DNA from: Chitinophagaceae bacterium
Lineage (GTDB): Bacteria > Bacteroidota > Bacteroidia > Chitinophagales > Chitinophagaceae
Direction: 5' to 3'
Assembly: GCA_947446645.1 (NCBI GenBank)
Contig: CANFHA010000010.1
Span: 62,001 to 126,000, forward strand
Length of the DNA: 64,000 bases
This document shows, one piece after another, positions 10,634-56,982 of this stretch. Made by a program: the position numbers and the translations under genes. Under the pieces are notes generated by a model. It was given only the letters and a program-made list of their open reading frames with translations, did not search any database and was not told where the DNA came from. The number at the start of each line of letters is the position of its first letter. The stretch's first letter is position 1.

Positions 10634-11155
10634 CTACGCTATTGTTCCGTTTAGTGTCACCCGGTTGGCCAGCCAGCTCTTGCTCAGCGGCACCAGCCAT
10701 GTGCTCATAAGTTCTTTCTTGGTGGTAGCAACATTGTTGAATAACAACGTGTCGCCATCTATATAACCTTTATCTATAGCGTACTGCACTTGTGTAAACG
10801 GCAGCATCTCTGCTTTCCCTTTCAGCAGGAAGGTGATCATCATACGGTCGAAGAAGTTTACATCATACTGTCGTTCCAGGCTTTTTATTACCCGTACCGA
10901 GCTGTCCGTGCTGCACCCGCTTACTTCCACATCACTTTCATCCGCAATGACCACTATGAACTGGCGAAACAAAAGTTTAGCCCATCCCCTAACCGGCGCG
11001 CCGTGCGCCTGCCATTGCGTGTAGAACTGGTATAGCTGCTCATTTACCTCTTTTTCTTCCTTCTCTATAAAGGCACGGCTGCACTGGTATATCCACACTC
11101 TGGCGCTATCAGGAAAATCCTGCGGAATGATATCATTTAAATCTTCGATAAGCAT
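10634..11155 (-). CDS. Conserved Bacteroidota protein often labelled 'ABC transporter ATPase'; function unknown
   Basis: A 173-residue protein. The pattern DSARVWIYQCSRAF, then QWQAHGAPVRGWAKLLFRQFIVV, then SGCSTDSSVRVIKSLERQYDVNFFDRM is shared with a conserved Bacteroidota family that databases frequently name ABC transporter ATPase. The sequence has no Walker A, Walker B or ABC signature, so I do not accept that name. It is soluble, with no signal peptide or membrane segment. The -7 element TATCTTTG ends four bases before the ATG, suggesting a leaderless mRNA. Family recognition is from memory; the function is not known. Confidence 0.7.
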   Translation of the reverse strand: MLIEDLNDIIPQDFPDSARVWIYQCSRAFIEKEEKEVNEQLYQFYTQWQAHGAPVRGWAKLLFRQFIVVIADESDVEVSGCSTDSSVRVIKSLERQYDVNFFDRMMITFLLKGKAEMLPFTQVQYAIDKGYIDGDTLLFNNVATTKKELMSTWLVPLSKSWLANRVTLNGTIA

Positions 11156-11159
11156 ACGG

Positions 11160-11167
11160 CAAAGATA
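11160..11167 (-). promoter_or_regulatory. -7 element four bases from a start codon
   Basis: The minus strand reads TATCTTTG, then CCGT, then ATG at 11155. This is an exact TAnnTTTG match. If it works as a -7 element, transcription would begin at or within a base or two of the ATG, giving a leaderless mRNA. Confidence 0.5.
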
Positions 11168-28246: not shown

Positions 28247-30754
28247 CTATCCCTCATTTACATATACGCGTTTCACCCGTTGAGATATGCTTGTCATGAT
28301 CTCGTAGGATATGGTACCGGCCCATGCGGCCAACTGTGAAACGGTAAGGTCTTTACCAAAGATAATTGCATCATCTCCTTCTTTCGCTTCCGGTATGTCT
28401 GTTACGTCCACCATACACATATCCATACAAATGGATCCGGTAGTTTTTGCCTGCTTATCGTGTATCAGCACGTGCGACTTTCCATTTCCCAATGATCGCG
28501 GATACCCATCTGCATAGCCAATGCAAATGGTGGCAATGCGCATATCGCGCGGTGCGATCGTGTGGTGTCCATACCCAATATTATCCCCTGCTGTTACGTA
28601 GTGGATCTGGGCAATGCTTGTTTTCAATGTGCTTATCTGCCGTAGCCTGTTTTGCAATAAGTGGCTGCCATCTACACCATACAGTCCCAGTCCCAGGCGT
28701 ACCATGTCGTATTGTAGGTTGCGGTGACGCAATATGCCAGCTGAGTTACACAGATGGCGCATTGGTTTATTGTTCAATACAGCCATCAGTTTGTTGCTCA
28801 TGCTGTTAAAGAGCAGGCCTTGTTGTTTTGTGAATTCGTCCTGGGCCGGATCGTCGCTGGCGGCGAGATGGCTAAAGATACTGGCTACTTCTATTGCATT
28901 GCTCTCAGGTAGCCGTACTGTTAGTGCGTCAATATCTTCGGGTGTGAATCCCAGCCGGTGCATGCCTGTGTCAAGTTTGATGTGCACAGGGTACTTATTT
29001 ACCTGTAGTGTCTGGGCTATATTTAGAAACGCAGTAAGCGAGCGGAAGTTGAACAATTCCGGTTCCAGTTTCCAGGCTATCATCCGGTCAAATGATGTGG
29101 CGTCCGGGCTCATCACCATTATTGGCAGTTTTATTCCTGCTTTGCGCAGGGCTATTCCTTCATCCGTATAGGCTACGGTCAGGTAATCCACGCCTGCATA
29201 CTGCAATAAATTCGCTATTTCGTAACTGCCGCTACCGTATGCGAAAGCCTTTACCATGGCCATGGTTTTCACGCCCGGCTCCAGTTCGCCTCTGAACACA
29301 TTCAGATTGTGAGTGAGCGCAGACAAGTCTATTGACATTACGGTCTGGTGTACCTGCTGCTCCAGCAGCAGTCCTATTTTTTCAAAGGCAAATACCCGTG
29401 CACCTTTAAGCAGTATAGCTTCTTTGTCGAACGTCAGCAGGTGAAAGTTCTTTAGCAGATCTTCGGTGGACTTAAAGAAAATACTGCGTATTCTTTTATG
29501 TTTTCTGAAAGATGCCTTGTTTTTATATAATGCCGGTCCGATACCTATAAACCGTTGTATATTCTTGCGGCTGATCAAGGCGGCAACTTCGTCGTACAAG
29601 TCCAGGTCCCGCTTACCTATCTGCAGTATGTCGGACATGATAACGGTATGGTGCGTATGCTGCTTTTGCTGATCGAGATAGTTGAGCGCCAGCTGCAAAG
29701 AAGTGAGGTCTGAGTTATAGGCGTCATTTATAATCGTACAATCATTAATTCCGTGCTTCAGTTCCAAACGCATAGAGACCTGCTGCAGCTGTGCCATTTG
29801 TGACCTCGTCTCTTCTTCATCCACTCCAAGCAATAATGCTACACACCAGCAATGAATTGCATTTTCCACCGAAGCATCGTCAGAGAAGGGTATGGATATG
29901 TTGATCGTGTTTCCCTTATGTATGCCGGTAATAGTGGTTTTAGCACCTATCTTATCAATCTTTGTTATTCTCAGGTCAGCATCGTGTTTTTGTGACCACG
30001 TGAATAACTGTAACGGTTCCTCAGTTCTTCCACCCTTTACCTGGTGTATATACTGCACTATACATTGGTTCAGCTCGGCATGATCGTGGCAATAAATGAG
30101 GTGTTTTGCGTGGCGGAATAATATCAGCTTCTCGTTGATCTTTTGTCGTGAATTCATAAAGCCCTCACTATGGGCCTCGCCTATGTTAGTGAATACGCCT
30201 ATAATGGGCTGAATGATGCGTTCCAGGTTTTCCATTTCCCCGGGCTGGGAAATGCCTGCTTCAAAAATGGCCAGCTGCTGCTCGTTGTTCATGAGCCAGA
30301 CGGATAGCGGTACACCCACCTGGGAGTTGTAGCTCTTAGGGCTTCTTAAAGCGTTGTATCTGTTGCCTAATAGCTGGTAAAGCCATTCCTTTACCACTGT
30401 TTTGCCATTGCTGCCTGTGATACCGATAACAGGAATATCAAATTGTTTACGATGTGCTGCTGCAATCTTTTGCAGTGCAACTACCGTGTCTTTTACCTGG
30501 ATGATATTTGCGCCGGGTAGTAGGCTTTCGTCAATTGACTGAGATATGAGGAAATTACGAACCCCCTTCTGCCACGCATCCTGCAGGTAGTTGTGGCCGT
30601 CGCGCAGTGCTGTTTTAATGGGAATAAACAAGGTACATCCGCCGGTTTCAATACTACGACTGTCTATTGATAATTCTGTTACTTCAGCCTCGGCCAGTAT
30701 TTTTACAAGCCATACTCCATTGCACCATTTCCGAAGTTGTTCAATATTGTTCAT
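28247..30754 (-). CDS. murF-alr: Bifunctional MurF ligase / alanine racemase
   Basis: An 835-residue fusion from ATG 30754; the track's start lies 58 codons upstream, beyond a -7 element. Residues of about 1-455 are UDP-N-acetylmuramoyl-tripeptide:D-Ala-D-Ala ligase, with the ATP loop GITGSNGKTVVKEW and FEAGISQPGEMENLE. Residues of about 460-835 are a PLP alanine racemase, with SIDLSALTHNLNVF, the PLP Lys in MAMVKAFAYGSG, and catalytic Tyr in NIGYGHHT. One polypeptide thus makes D-Ala and adds D-Ala-D-Ala to the peptidoglycan precursor. The fusion is known in Bacteroidota, so it is not novel. A -7 element ends 9 bases before the ATG. Confidence 0.94.
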   Translation of the reverse strand: MNNIEQLRKWCNGVWLVKILAEAEVTELSIDSRSIETGGCTLFIPIKTALRDGHNYLQDAWQKGVRNFLISQSIDESLLPGANIIQVKDTVVALQKIAAAHRKQFDIPVIGITGSNGKTVVKEWLYQLLGNRYNALRSPKSYNSQVGVPLSVWLMNNEQQLAIFEAGISQPGEMENLERIIQPIIGVFTNIGEAHSEGFMNSRQKINEKLILFRHAKHLIYCHDHAELNQCIVQYIHQVKGGRTEEPLQLFTWSQKHDADLRITKIDKIGAKTTITGIHKGNTINISIPFSDDASVENAIHCWCVALLLGVDEEETRSQMAQLQQVSMRLELKHGINDCTIINDAYNSDLTSLQLALNYLDQQKQHTHHTVIMSDILQIGKRDLDLYDEVAALISRKNIQRFIGIGPALYKNKASFRKHKRIRSIFFKSTEDLLKNFHLLTFDKEAILLKGARVFAFEKIGLLLEQQVHQTVMSIDLSALTHNLNVFRGELEPGVKTMAMVKAFAYGSGSYEIANLLQYAGVDYLTVAYTDEGIALRKAGIKLPIMVMSPDATSFDRMIAWKLEPELFNFRSLTAFLNIAQTLQVNKYPVHIKLDTGMHRLGFTPEDIDALTVRLPESNAIEVASIFSHLAASDDPAQDEFTKQQGLLFNSMSNKLMAVLNNKPMRHLCNSAGILRHRNLQYDMVRLGLGLYGVDGSHLLQNRLRQISTLKTSIAQIHYVTAGDNIGYGHHTIAPRDMRIATICIGYADGYPRSLGNGKSHVLIHDKQAKTTGSICMDMCMVDVTDIPEAKEGDDAIIFGKDLTVSQLAAWAGTISYEIMTSISQRVKRVYVNEG

Positions 30755-30763
30755 AGCGGGTAG

Positions 30764-30771
30764 CAAATATA
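30764..30771 (-). promoter_or_regulatory. -7 element nine bases from the murF-alr start
   Basis: The minus strand reads TATATTTG at 30771-30764, then nine bases to ATG 30754. An exact consensus match that would give a 5' leader of only a few bases. It also supports the chosen ATG. Confidence 0.5.
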
Positions 30772-30865
30772 GATAAAGTATGTAATTGTGGATTTTCAAA
30801 TCACCAGGTTTATAAATATCGTATAGCGAAGTGATAGCGCAAGCGGTTATCTGTCTATCTTTCCT

Positions 30866-30873
30866 TAGATTTG
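30866..30873 (+). promoter_or_regulatory. -7 element four bases from the nadD start
   Basis: TAGATTTG, then CCGC, then ATG 30878. An exact TAnnTTTG match; transcription would begin at about the A of the start codon. The TTTGCCGYATG arrangement is the same as at 11155 on the other strand. Confidence 0.5.
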
Positions 30874-30877
30874 CCGC

Positions 30878-31459
30878 ATGCATATCGGGTTGTATTTTGG
30901 CAGCTTTAATCCTGTTCATACCGGCCATCTAATAGTGGCAAATCATGTGGTGGCGCATACTGAAGTGGATAAAATATGGTTTGTCGTTTCGCCTCACAAT
31001 CCACTGAAAGATTCCCACTCGCTGCTAAATGAATATGACAGACTGCACCTGGTGAACCTCGCTATAGAAGATAATCCGAAGTTCAGGGCAAGCAATGTGG
31101 AATTTAATCTACCCAAACCTTCCTATACAATAGATACCCTTACCTACCTCACAGAAAAGTTTCCACTCGAAAAATTTTCGGTAGTAATGGGGGCGGATAG
31201 TTTTCAAAATATACACCGCTGGAAAAATTACGAGCAGCTTGTAGCCCGGTATTCATTTATTGTGTACAACAGGCCAGGCTTTGAGATTACTGAGACATAC
31301 GGTGCAGATATAACTGTACTTGACGCTCCCTTGCTGCATTTGTCATCTACCTTCATACGCAAGCAGATAAAGGAGAAAAGATCGATAAAGTATATAGTGC
31401 CCGATGCGGTAGAGAAGTATATAGATGCAAACAGGTACTACGTGGAGCTAAAAAAGTAG
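30878..31459 (+). CDS. nadD: Nicotinate-nucleotide adenylyltransferase
   Basis: A 193-residue nucleotidyltransferase. The N-terminus MHIGLYFGSFNPVHTGHL carries the GxFxPxHxGH nucleotide-binding motif, and the second signature is near LSSTFIRKQI (SSTxxR). SVVMGADSFQNIHRWKNYEQL is typical of NadD. It converts nicotinate mononucleotide and ATP to deamido-NAD in NAD synthesis. NadB, an early enzyme of the same pathway, is also in the window (45.6 kb). It is divergent from murF-alr with 123 bases between them. Confidence 0.95.
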   Translation: MHIGLYFGSFNPVHTGHLIVANHVVAHTEVDKIWFVVSPHNPLKDSHSLLNEYDRLHLVNLAIEDNPKFRASNVEFNLPKPSYTIDTLTYLTEKFPLEKFSVVMGADSFQNIHRWKNYEQLVARYSFIVYNRPGFEITETYGADITVLDAPLLHLSSTFIRKQIKEKRSIKYIVPDAVEKYIDANRYYVELKK

Positions 31460-45572: not shown

Positions 45573-45580
45573 TACCTTTG
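45573..45580 (+). promoter_or_regulatory. -7 element seven bases from the nadB start
   Basis: TACCTTTG is an exact TAnnTTTG match ending seven bases before ATG 45588. Transcription would begin within a few bases of the start codon. Confidence 0.45.
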
Positions 45581-45587
45581 ATGATAT

Positions 45588-47186
45588 ATGCTAAAGACGG
45601 ATTTTCTAATAATTGGTTCCGGTATTGCCGGCCTCACATTTGCAGTGAAGACCGCGCGCAAGTTTCCGGAAAAAAGCATAACCATACTTACCAAGGCCAA
45701 TGCCGACGAAACAAATACCAAGTACGCACAGGGAGGTATAGCTGTGGTGAATGACCTGGAGCGTGATAGTTTTAAGAAGCATATACGGGACACACTGATA
45801 GCCGGAGATGGCCTGTGTAATGAGCACATAGTAGATGCGGTAGTGACAGAAGGACCGGAGCGCGTGAATGAGATAATAGAGTGGGGGGCAAACTTTGATA
45901 AGGACAAAGGGGGCGAATATATGCGTGGCAAAGAAGGTGGCCACAGCGAATACAGGATACTGCATTATAAAGACATTACCGGCTCTGAAATAGAACGTGC
46001 ACTGCTGGAAGAGGTGAAGAGGCATCCTAACATACAGATATACAACCATTGGTTTGTGGTAGACATTATAACGCAGCACAACCTGGGATATTTGGTGACA
46101 AAGGCTACGCCGGATATTACGTGCTACGGGGTATACGCGCTGAACCTCAGGACCAATAATATTGAAAAGATACTGGCCCGCTGCACAACTATGGCATCGG
46201 GTGGTGCAGGGCAGGTGTACCGTACTACCACTAATCCGCGTATAGCTACCGGCGATGGTATTGCAATGGCATACAGGGCCAAAGGGCGCATAGAGAATAT
46301 GGAGTTCATACAGTTCCATCCCACAGCTTTGTACGAGGCCGGTGTAAGCCCGTCGTTTCTTATTACTGAGGCTGTAAGAGGCGACGGCGGGATATTGCGG
46401 AATAAAGAGGGTGTGGCCTTTATGCCGGAGTACGACCCTCGTGCTGACCTGGCCCCACGCGATGTTGTAGCCAGGGCTATTGATAGCGAAATGAAGCGAA
46501 CGGGAACGGAGCACGTATATCTGGACTGCCGTGCTATGGACAAAGAAAAATTCACAGCGCACTTCCCTAATATTTATGCGCGTTGCAAGAGCATAGGCAT
46601 AGATGTGTTTGAGCAAATGATTCCGGTAGCGCCGGCGGCGCATTACTGCTGTGGTGGCATAAAAACGGATGAGGTGGGGAGATCCTCTATCATCAATTTG
46701 TATGCGTGTGGAGAGTGCTCCAGCACAGGCCTGCATGGAGCTAATCGCCTGGCTTCAAACTCGCTGTTGGAAGCACTGGTGTTTGCACACAGGTGCGCGG
46801 AAGATATGGCCGCCAGGATAGATGATATTGAATTCAAAGATGAAGTGCCCGACTGGAATGCTTCAGGCACAAGTGATCCTAAGGAAATGATCCTGATCAC
46901 GCAAAGCCTGAAAGAACTTCAGCAAATAATGAGCGACTATGTGGGCATCGTACGTAACGATGTGCGACTGCACCGTGCTATGAGCCGCATAGACCTGATA
47001 CATAATGAAACAGAAGATCTGTATAAGTCAACAACGCTATCACCGCAGCTCTGTGAATTGCGGAATCTTATAACTGTAGGGTATTTAATTGTAAAGGGCG
47101 CACAATTTCGTAAGGAGAGCAGGGGGCTGCATTTTAATACTGACTATCCGTTCAAGAGTAACTTATTGCAACAGGTGGTGTTGTAG
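45588..47186 (+). CDS. nadB: L-aspartate oxidase
   Basis: A 532-residue flavoprotein. The FAD-binding start is TDFLIIGSGIAGLTFAVKTAR, followed by NTKYAQGGIAVV, then EGGHSEYRILHYKDITGSEIERALLE. The succinate dehydrogenase/fumarate reductase-type core is seen in MEFIQFHPTALYEAG and the C-terminal YACGECSSTGLHGANRLASNSLLEALVF. It oxidises L-aspartate to iminoaspartate, the first step of de novo NAD synthesis. NadA and NadC are not in the window. A 376-residue antisense ORF (45606-46736) is a shadow. Confidence 0.96.
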   Translation: MLKTDFLIIGSGIAGLTFAVKTARKFPEKSITILTKANADETNTKYAQGGIAVVNDLERDSFKKHIRDTLIAGDGLCNEHIVDAVVTEGPERVNEIIEWGANFDKDKGGEYMRGKEGGHSEYRILHYKDITGSEIERALLEEVKRHPNIQIYNHWFVVDIITQHNLGYLVTKATPDITCYGVYALNLRTNNIEKILARCTTMASGGAGQVYRTTTNPRIATGDGIAMAYRAKGRIENMEFIQFHPTALYEAGVSPSFLITEAVRGDGGILRNKEGVAFMPEYDPRADLAPRDVVARAIDSEMKRTGTEHVYLDCRAMDKEKFTAHFPNIYARCKSIGIDVFEQMIPVAPAAHYCCGGIKTDEVGRSSIINLYACGECSSTGLHGANRLASNSLLEALVFAHRCAEDMAARIDDIEFKDEVPDWNASGTSDPKEMILITQSLKELQQIMSDYVGIVRNDVRLHRAMSRIDLIHNETEDLYKSTTLSPQLCELRNLITVGYLIVKGAQFRKESRGLHFNTDYPFKSNLLQQVVL

Positions 47187-53517: not shown

Positions 53518-54348
53518 TCAGAACAACGACATCTGCACCGGTTTAGTAACCTGAAAAGCCGAAACGGGCTCTACGCAGTCAAGATCTGTGAGCTCGTATA
53601 CCGGTGTTTCCTTATAGCGGGAAGCAACAACTACATCGGTATCCTCAGCATGTTCGGCAAATAGTTCCAGTGCCAGGTGGGGCGAGTTATTATCTTTCGA
53701 AAGATGAGATAACCAGATCATACTTACGAATGGTGAACGATGCTGTATGAACAGGTCGAGCGCCTGCTTGTTAGACAAATGCCCATTATTGCCGCTTATG
53801 CGCCTTTTAAGGTGTAGCGGGTAGCGGCCACTCTCCAGCATATCATCGTCATAATTCGCCTCAAGGAAAATGGCATGGCATTGTTTGAAATTTTGGACCA
53901 CGTGTTCGCAAGGGCTGCCAATATCAGTGAATACGCCCACGTTAAGCCCGTTATAACTGATTACGAAGCTATGCGGGTCTATGGCATCATGCAACTTTGG
54001 AAAAGCCAGTACAGATAAAGAACCTATGATTACCGGCTTGTACGCGGTGAATTGTTTAACCAGATGCACACCAACATTGAGACGGCTGTGCTGAAAAGTT
54101 AATGGCGTTATATATAGTGGCAGCTGGTATTTGCGCGTCAGGGCCTCAGCCCCGCAAATATGGTCGCCATGCTCATGAGAAATAAAAACGGCTTTCACCC
54201 TGTCCATCTCCAGGCCCAGTCGCTTCATTCTTTTTTCAGTCTCGCGGCAGGAAATGCCGGCATCAACAAGCACAGCTTCTGTGTCATTACCTATGTAATA
54301 ACAGTTGCCGTTGCTACCGGAATTCAAAGATGCTATGAACAGGGACAT
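53518..54348 (-). CDS. MBL-fold metallohydrolase (YycJ/WalJ-like)
   Basis: A 276-residue metallo-beta-lactamase-fold protein. The metal motif is FISHEHGDHICGAEAL (HxHxDH), with further ligands likely at FPKLHDAIDPHSF and in the FTDIGSP stretch, typical of the YycJ group. It is probably a nuclease or a phosphodiesterase in DNA metabolism by family analogy; the substrate is unproven. The -7 element TATTTTTG ends five bases before the ATG at 54348, so the mRNA may be leaderless. It shares the strand with mutY but is separated by 41 bases. Confidence 0.88.
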   Translation of the reverse strand: MSLFIASLNSGSNGNCYYIGNDTEAVLVDAGISCRETEKRMKRLGLEMDRVKAVFISHEHGDHICGAEALTRKYQLPLYITPLTFQHSRLNVGVHLVKQFTAYKPVIIGSLSVLAFPKLHDAIDPHSFVISYNGLNVGVFTDIGSPCEHVVQNFKQCHAIFLEANYDDDMLESGRYPLHLKRRISGNNGHLSNKQALDLFIQHRSPFVSMIWLSHLSKDNNSPHLALELFAEHAEDTDVVVASRYKETPVYELTDLDCVEPVSAFQVTKPVQMSLF

Positions 54349-54353
54349 TTAGG

Positions 54354-54361
54354 CAAAAATA
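54354..54361 (-). promoter_or_regulatory. -7 element five bases from an MBL-fold gene start
   Basis: The minus strand reads TATTTTTG, then CCTAA, then ATG 54348. Exact consensus match, predicting an almost leaderless transcript. Confidence 0.45.
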
Positions 54362-55873: not shown

Positions 55874-56968
55874 TTATTCCTCAAAAAGGCGCAATTGCCA
55901 GGAGTCTTTTTTATTCAATTTTACAGGCTCGTGAAAATTAGAAACTGAGATACCTAGCAAGCGTGTCTTTTTGCCTTCCGGATCAGTGGTGAGCAACAAT
56001 TCCTTTGCCAGCGCAGCTATTGTTTCTGCATCGCCTACAGGTTGCTCCAGTGATCTGCTACGGGTTATCTGCCTGAAATCATTGTACTTAATCTTAACAG
56101 TTACTGTCCTTCCTTTTAATTGATATTTTTCAAGCCGCGCGCATACCAGTTTCGCTATCTTATCCAGTTCTGCGTTCATCTCGGAGGTCTGCGTCAGATC
56201 ATAGGCAAAAGTGTCCTCTGCAGCCACCGACTTGGTTTCCCTGTCGGGCTGTACCTCGCGGTCATCTATGCCCCTTACAATTTTGTAATAAAAGCTACCG
56301 GCTTTCCCAAAACACTTCGTCAGCTCATCTTCAGTCATCTTCTTAAGATCAGCGCCGGTGTGGAGGCCCATATTTTTCATTTTATCGGCTGTCACTCTTC
56401 CTACACCATAGAATTTTTCTACCGGCAATTTCTCCATAAACTCTTCGATGTGCGATGGCCCGATAAAAGCTAAGCCATCCGGCTTATTGAGATCGGAGGC
56501 TATTTTAGCTACAAATTTGTTTATCGATACTCCGGCGGATGCAGTGAGGTTCAGCTCGTCTTTAATGGCCTGTTTTGTAAGTTTTGCAATAGCTATCGCT
56601 GAGCCAATTCCCTGCTTGTCCTCCGTTACGTCCAGGTAGGCTTCGTCCAGCGACAATGGTTCAATGATGTCTGTATGACGGTGAAAAATCTCGCGTATAT
56701 GATTAGATACCTCCTTGTAGGCGGCAAACCTGGGATACACAAATATTAGATCCGGGCAAAGTGCCAGGGCCCTTTTTGATGGCATTGCAGACCTTATCCC
56801 GAATTTTCGTGCCTCGTAGCTGGCCGCAGCCACCACGCCGCCGCGGCCTTCAGGCGAGCCGCCCACTACCAGTGCCTTACCCCTGTATTCCGGGTTGTCG
56901 CGCTGCTCTACAGATGCATAAAATGCATCCATATCCACGTGAATGATCTTTCGCTGCTTGTCCGGCAT
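55874..56968 (-). CDS. dinB: DNA polymerase IV (Y-family)
   Basis: A 364-residue polymerase from ATG 56968; the track uses a TTG three codons earlier. Catalytic residues are in IHVDMDAFYASVEQRDNP and in PLSLDEAYLDVTEDKQG (SxDE). The HhH thumb region is PVEKFYGVGRVTADKMKNMGL, and the little-finger domain ends the protein. It makes short error-prone patches past DNA lesions. The C-terminus ends WQLRLFEE, resembling a beta-clamp-binding tail. It lies 14 bases downstream of the aat gene. Confidence 0.95.
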   Translation of the reverse strand: MPDKQRKIIHVDMDAFYASVEQRDNPEYRGKALVVGGSPEGRGGVVAAASYEARKFGIRSAMPSKRALALCPDLIFVYPRFAAYKEVSNHIREIFHRHTDIIEPLSLDEAYLDVTEDKQGIGSAIAIAKLTKQAIKDELNLTASAGVSINKFVAKIASDLNKPDGLAFIGPSHIEEFMEKLPVEKFYGVGRVTADKMKNMGLHTGADLKKMTEDELTKCFGKAGSFYYKIVRGIDDREVQPDRETKSVAAEDTFAYDLTQTSEMNAELDKIAKLVCARLEKYQLKGRTVTVKIKYNDFRQITRSRSLEQPVGDAETIAALAKELLLTTDPEGKKTRLLGISVSNFHEPVKLNKKDSWQLRLFEE

Positions 56969-56982
56969 TGGACGCAAAGTTA

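Follow-up and report, generated by a model that had tools for sequence, protein, structure and literature searches.

Bacteria of the phylum Bacteroidota lack the usual ribosome-binding signal, their primary sigma factor recognises the -7 element TAnnTTTG, and leaderless messages are thought to be rare among them. The stretch of DNA described here, a window of 64,000 nucleotides, raises a simple question: what does it mean when this promoter element lies only a few bases before a start codon? Does transcription begin on the AUG itself? Or, is the element a signal inside a longer message, or there by chance? The window comes from a genome of 4.7 Mb (contig C10, 62001-126000); among named organisms, its closest relatives are Chitinophagaceae from the Flavipsychrobacter/Taibaiella group. 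The answer that we favour, with a probability of roughly 0.86, is that ordinary primary-sigma promoters would here start transcription on the AUG or 1-4 bases before it, and that the resulting mRNAs would be leaderless.

A preliminary description of the window had placed five TAnnTTTG elements 4, 9, 4, 7 and 5 bases before the genes at 11155, 30754, 30878, 45588 and 54348, and its coordinates were confirmed (Table 1). All five elements match TAnnTTTG exactly; relative to the stricter TAHHTTTG, a G replaces the H at -10 in the nadD element. A sixth case, absent from that description, precedes the gene at 56968, a DNA polymerase of the impB/mucB/samB family, and is the least certain in the window because the element directly adjoins the end of the upstream gene. 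Distances are given as the gap, i.e., the number of bases separating the final G of the element from the start codon. In mapped F. johnsoniae promoters the element runs from T(-12) to G(-5) (PMC6847099); therefore, a gap of 4 puts +1 on the A of the ATG, and subtracting 4 from the gap gives the length of the predicted leader. All transcript starts given here are inferred from this published position.

Table 1. Near -7 elements of the window and the genes that follow them, with predicted starts and leaders.
Feature	Coordinates	Strand	Remarks
-7 element TAGATTTG	30866..30873	+	gap 4 to nadD ATG; predicted transcript start 30878 (A of ATG)
nadD, nicotinate-nucleotide adenylyltransferase	30878..31459	+	TIGR00482, E 9.7e-53; predicted leaderless
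-7 element TATCTTTG	11160..11167	-	gap 4 to gene at 11155; predicted transcript start 11155
Conserved 173-aa protein of unknown function	10634..11155	-	predicted leaderless
-7 element TATTTTTG	54354..54361	-	gap 5 to MBL gene; predicted leader 1 nt
Metallo-beta-lactamase-fold hydrolase (MBL gene)	53518..54348	-	PF00753, PF12706; predicted, probably leaderless
-7 element TATATTTG	30764..30771	-	gap 9 to murF-alr; predicted leader 5 nt
Bifunctional murF-alr	28247..30754	-	NF008897, 1102.8 bits; predicted very short leader
TACCTTTG	45573..45580	+	gap 7 to nadB; leader would be 3 nt; not conserved, possibly chance
nadB, L-aspartate oxidase	45588..47186	+	TIGR00551, 543.3 bits
TAACTTTG	56975..56982	-	gap 6 to gene at 56968; sixth case

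Could such cases arise by accident, from a short, T-rich motif that falls near a few starts? The motif by itself shows no enrichment, which would suit this explanation: the whole window holds 47 matches to TAnnTTTG, against 58 expected by shuffling. The enrichment is confined to the position of the motif relative to start codons. An element stands at 4-9 bases before 6 of the 45 called ATG genes of the window, against a mean of 0.29 and a maximum of 3 in 1000 shuffles, which bears out the earlier impression that five close cases are beyond chance. The string TTTGCCGYATG does occur at both 11155 and 30878, as had been described. As a separate element it was rejected: TANNTTTGCCGYATG has only four occurrences in the 4.7-Mb genome, and relatives differ in the bases that separate the element from the start, apart from a common C next to the G.

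At genome scale, distance histograms cover 1.6 Mb of the window's genome and, from a second genome, 0.8 Mb of strain LGM1; genes were called by a hexamer score blind to the motif, yielding 1012 and 588 ATG starts, respectively; some of the starts called by the script differ from the longest frame. Element placement was controlled by 29 permuted motifs, by dinucleotide shuffles and by a start-call-free count restricted to the first ATG of each frame that stays open for 100 codons or more. In the 1.6-Mb sample TAHHTTTG lies at gaps of 3-8 before 46 of the 1012 starts, against a mean of 1.9 (maximum 4) for the 29 permuted motifs; gaps of 9-13 hold 11 cases (2.0 permuted) and gaps of 14-20 hold 52 (3.9), with lower counts beyond. 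The corresponding values for LGM1 are 24 of 588 (1.6), 9 (0.8) and 21 (2.0). At gaps of 0-2 there is no excess above background in the two genomes, with 0 cases in the window's genome sample and 1 in LGM1. Dinucleotide shuffles of the genome sample tell the same story at gaps of 4-9, where 48 elements were observed against a mean of 4.9 and a maximum of 11 (100 shuffles). The excess at close distance, which the preliminary description had proposed to measure against shuffled sequence, amounts to ∼24-fold over permuted motifs and ∼10-fold over dinucleotide shuffles, and it reappears, with the same peaks, when start calls are left out. For the set as a whole, chance is refuted by this excess together with the exact spacing kept in diverged DNA (see below), and its probability is next to nil; single genes such as nadB, whose element is not conserved, may still be chance matches.

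The distances are two-peaked: a first peak at gaps of 3-8 (predicted leaders of 0-4 nt), a trough at 9-13, and a second peak at 14-20. Only 20 of the 163 pooled elements with gaps of 3-20 fall into the trough (p 1.5e-6, an optimistic value, as the bins were set after the data were seen). The position of this trough, equivalent to predicted leaders of 5-9 nt, suggests that messages either have no leader or have one that can extend into the ribosome, and that intermediate lengths are disfavoured.

How large is the class? Within 112 bases of a gene, predicted leaders of 0-4 nt make up ∼21% (44/210) of the total exact-element excess in the window's genome and 19% (22/115) in LGM1, a share of about 20% for which a promoter had to match the consensus exactly and lie near a gene. 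One-mismatch elements provide ∼54 further near cases in the window's genome. These imperfect elements also peak at a gap of 4 (33 cases in the 1.6-Mb sample), and their commonest change at gaps of 3-8 is TAnnTTTA, with 29 cases; it is possibly a second promoter variant, or in part an A-rich pre-start signal.

Another intriguing question is whether the near element belongs to the promoter or to the message. A translation or regulatory signal lying within a longer leader, with transcription beginning further upstream, would share the strict spacing to the start codon that is expected of a ribosome-binding signal, and the transcript start is placed here from sequence alone. The surroundings of the element point elsewhere. 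It is the promoter consensus letter for letter, and in the pooled near-element set it is accompanied, like the promoters that have been mapped, by AT-rich patches at -18 and -28 (74% vs 59% A+T, p 3e-6). Co-directional gene clusters seldom contain it, although a translation signal would serve equally well there: near elements stand close behind a co-directional gene in 7% vs 22% of cases (p 0.001). A near element precedes 70 of 1600 ATG starts vs 1 of 152 GTG/TTG starts. Finally, the genes behind near elements are without the A-rich pre-start sequence of leadered genes, with A at -3 in 16% vs 37% (p 0.001) and a G+C content at -3..-1 of 53% vs 32%. Taken together, the AT patches, the avoidance of clusters, the preference for ATG and the missing A-rich signature agree with a start at the AUG and sit uneasily with a signal that is itself transcribed, an explanation that we hold to be unlikely. 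The weakness of the -33 elements, noted as a reservation in the preliminary description, need not count against this reading: TTTG has no preferred upstream offset in either the near-element or the leadered class, and the mapped F. johnsoniae promoters likewise show no clear -33 element (PMC6847099).

Conservation separates the genes of the window from one another. Before nadD the exact element occurs at a gap of 4 in 41, of 5 in 21 and of 6 in 2, that is in 64 of 80 related loci, which are not independent observations; at the loci with a gap of 4, most other upstream positions agree with the window in only 20-50% of cases. The near element of nadD is confined to a close group, and elsewhere in the family there is mostly none; in distant family members, nadD has no near element and apparently follows another reading frame at a short distance. 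Leaderless nadD thus seems particular to the close group, where the gene has a promoter of its own. The variant with G at -10, TAGnTTTG, is found before nadD in the window's genome and in ∼59% of the gap-4 relatives; among the promoters mapped in F. johnsoniae, hardly any are reported to have a G at this position (PMC6847099).

The gene at 11155 has an exact element at a gap of 3-5 in 21 of 30 family genomes from different genera, the gap being exactly 4 in 19 of these; in three further genomes a one-mismatch element stands at a gap of 4. Relatives of the MBL gene keep an exact or, often, a one-mismatch element, mostly at gaps of 4-8, and the gap of 9 before murF-alr is found in the window's genome and in the 5 relatives with an alignment at the start of this gene. 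Before nadB, a near element is present in 4 of 30 genomes, its own included. A uniform treatment of all five genes was rejected, as nadB failed conservation. The proposal that these mRNAs have almost no 5' leader can be retained, as a prediction, with strong support from conserved spacing for nadD and the gene at 11155, which are very probably leaderless, and with moderate support for the MBL gene, which is probably so. It is modified for murF-alr, a borderline case whose predicted leader of 5 nt is kept in close relatives, and it gives way for nadB, a doubtful short-leader gene whose element may be a chance match.

Between the window's genome and LGM1, 4 of 9 genes predicted leaderless have orthologues that are likewise predicted leaderless, against 5 of 153 other genes (Fisher p 5e-4). 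The pairs predicted leaderless in both genomes are RlmN, FolD, Dcd (Pfam) and PanD, the last of which we take to be PanD from its N-terminus. Across the class, TAHHTTTGC followed by ATG is more frequent at a gap of 4 than at a gap of 11 in 48 of 49 genomes, with totals of 1278 and 621, counts that include matches outside called genes, and the ratio ranges by family from 1.5 to 7. This 11-base spacing control replaced a reversed-pattern control across the phylum, which is used as a guide only because the reversed motif differs in dinucleotide make-up.

Might the start codons themselves be wrong, with transcription beginning near the called ATG and translation further downstream in the frame, after an ordinary leader? 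Start prediction is uncertain where ribosome-binding signals are lacking, and the discrepancies between some script-called starts and the longest frame are a reminder of this. However, no start codon precedes the called one in the reading frame of nadD, and the nucleotide-binding motif of the protein, GSFNPVHTGH, occupies residues 8-17; therefore, a much later start is ruled out. Orthologues of nadD, RlmN, FolD, Dcd and PanD align from residue 1, and misassignment would not yield a sharp peak at 4 bases. We consider misplaced starts very unlikely as a general explanation.

The leaderless reading implies a short chain of events. The promoters would be ordinary primary-sigma promoters of the sigma-ABfr type, RNA polymerase would start on the A of the AUG or 1-4 bases before it, and ribosomes would recognise the 5'-terminal AUG directly, without an upstream ribosome-binding signal. 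Leaderless mRNAs of other bacteria are translated in this way, by direct ribosome recognition of the 5'-terminal AUG, and it is from there that the mode of ribosome entry is inferred. Further upstream promoters could give leadered transcripts of the same genes as well.

Which functions are encoded behind near elements? In the 1.6-Mb sample, the housekeeping families predicted leaderless include a purN-like formyltransferase, IMP dehydrogenase, folD, dCTP deaminase and clpS, along with a class II tRNA synthetase, an rRNA adenine dimethylase, rlmN, rimM, a release factor, and coaBC-like and RidA-like genes. The gene at 11155 is the most strictly conserved of those predicted leaderless. Its product has a homologue in 90 of 99 class genomes and an AlphaFold model with a mean pLDDT of 92.4; it has no Pfam or NCBIfam match, and searches for solved structures and PDB folds gave no reliable match. 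It is an orphan family common to most of the class.

Leaderless mRNAs in Bacteroidota are already known, though the published accounts present them as few. B. thetaiotaomicron, F. psychrophilum and F. johnsoniae share the phylum and the -7 element with the window's genome and have transcripts that start at or near the AUG: in the first, 3.7% of leaders are under 10 nt (PMC7366714), in the second, 5.5% are leaderless (PMC9723704), and in the third, 87% of leaders are over 10 nt, hence at most 13% are shorter (PMC6847099). These shares are lower than the ∼20% predicted here, although the comparison is rough, as it sets measurements against exact-consensus predictions. Two features set the present prediction apart from those reports: the trough, at predicted leaders of 5-9 nt, and the conservation from genus to genus. 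Among 953 bacterial genomes surveyed elsewhere, leaderless genes turned up in only 1 of 37 from Bacteroidetes/Chlorobi, because the search was for sigma-70 boxes; the survey judged large missed fractions unlikely (PMC3160421). A later comparison of nucleotide bias suggested leaderless mRNAs in the phylum, indistinguishable there from other signals (PMC5397173). In the literature searched, no transcript-start study naming Chitinophaga was found.

The leaderless genes of Actinobacteria and Deinococcus-Thermus likewise have a promoter element close to the start codon and at a set distance from it, which serves as their hallmark (PMC3160421); unlike in the window's genome, it is a sigma-70 type TAnnnT box ∼10-12 bases upstream. 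With sigma-ABfr promoters, the near elements share TAHHTTTG, the AT-rich patches at -18/-28 and perhaps a weak -33; they stand out only by where they lie with respect to the start codon, except that nadD also has its G at -10. What is new is the predicted share of ∼20% in this group, the two-peaked distribution and the conservation across genera.

Do these observations extend to the Bacteroidia as a whole? We regard it as an even bet that translation there starts in two discrete ways, leaderless (0-4 nt) and leadered (at least 10 nt), with 5-9 nt selected against, and that the leaderless way is a major one, passed on individually for each gene and used by housekeeping genes, among them those for ribosome maturation and for the synthesis of nucleotides and cofactors.

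The predicted leaderless class revises the earlier survey, in which the phylum had hardly any such genes. For 5'-end mapping, the shortage of leaders of 5-9 nt is a sharp prediction, and for gene finders the near element is a usable start signal. A leaderless class that is conserved and predictable offers direct test material for how Bacteroidota choose their start codons without Shine-Dalgarno pairing.
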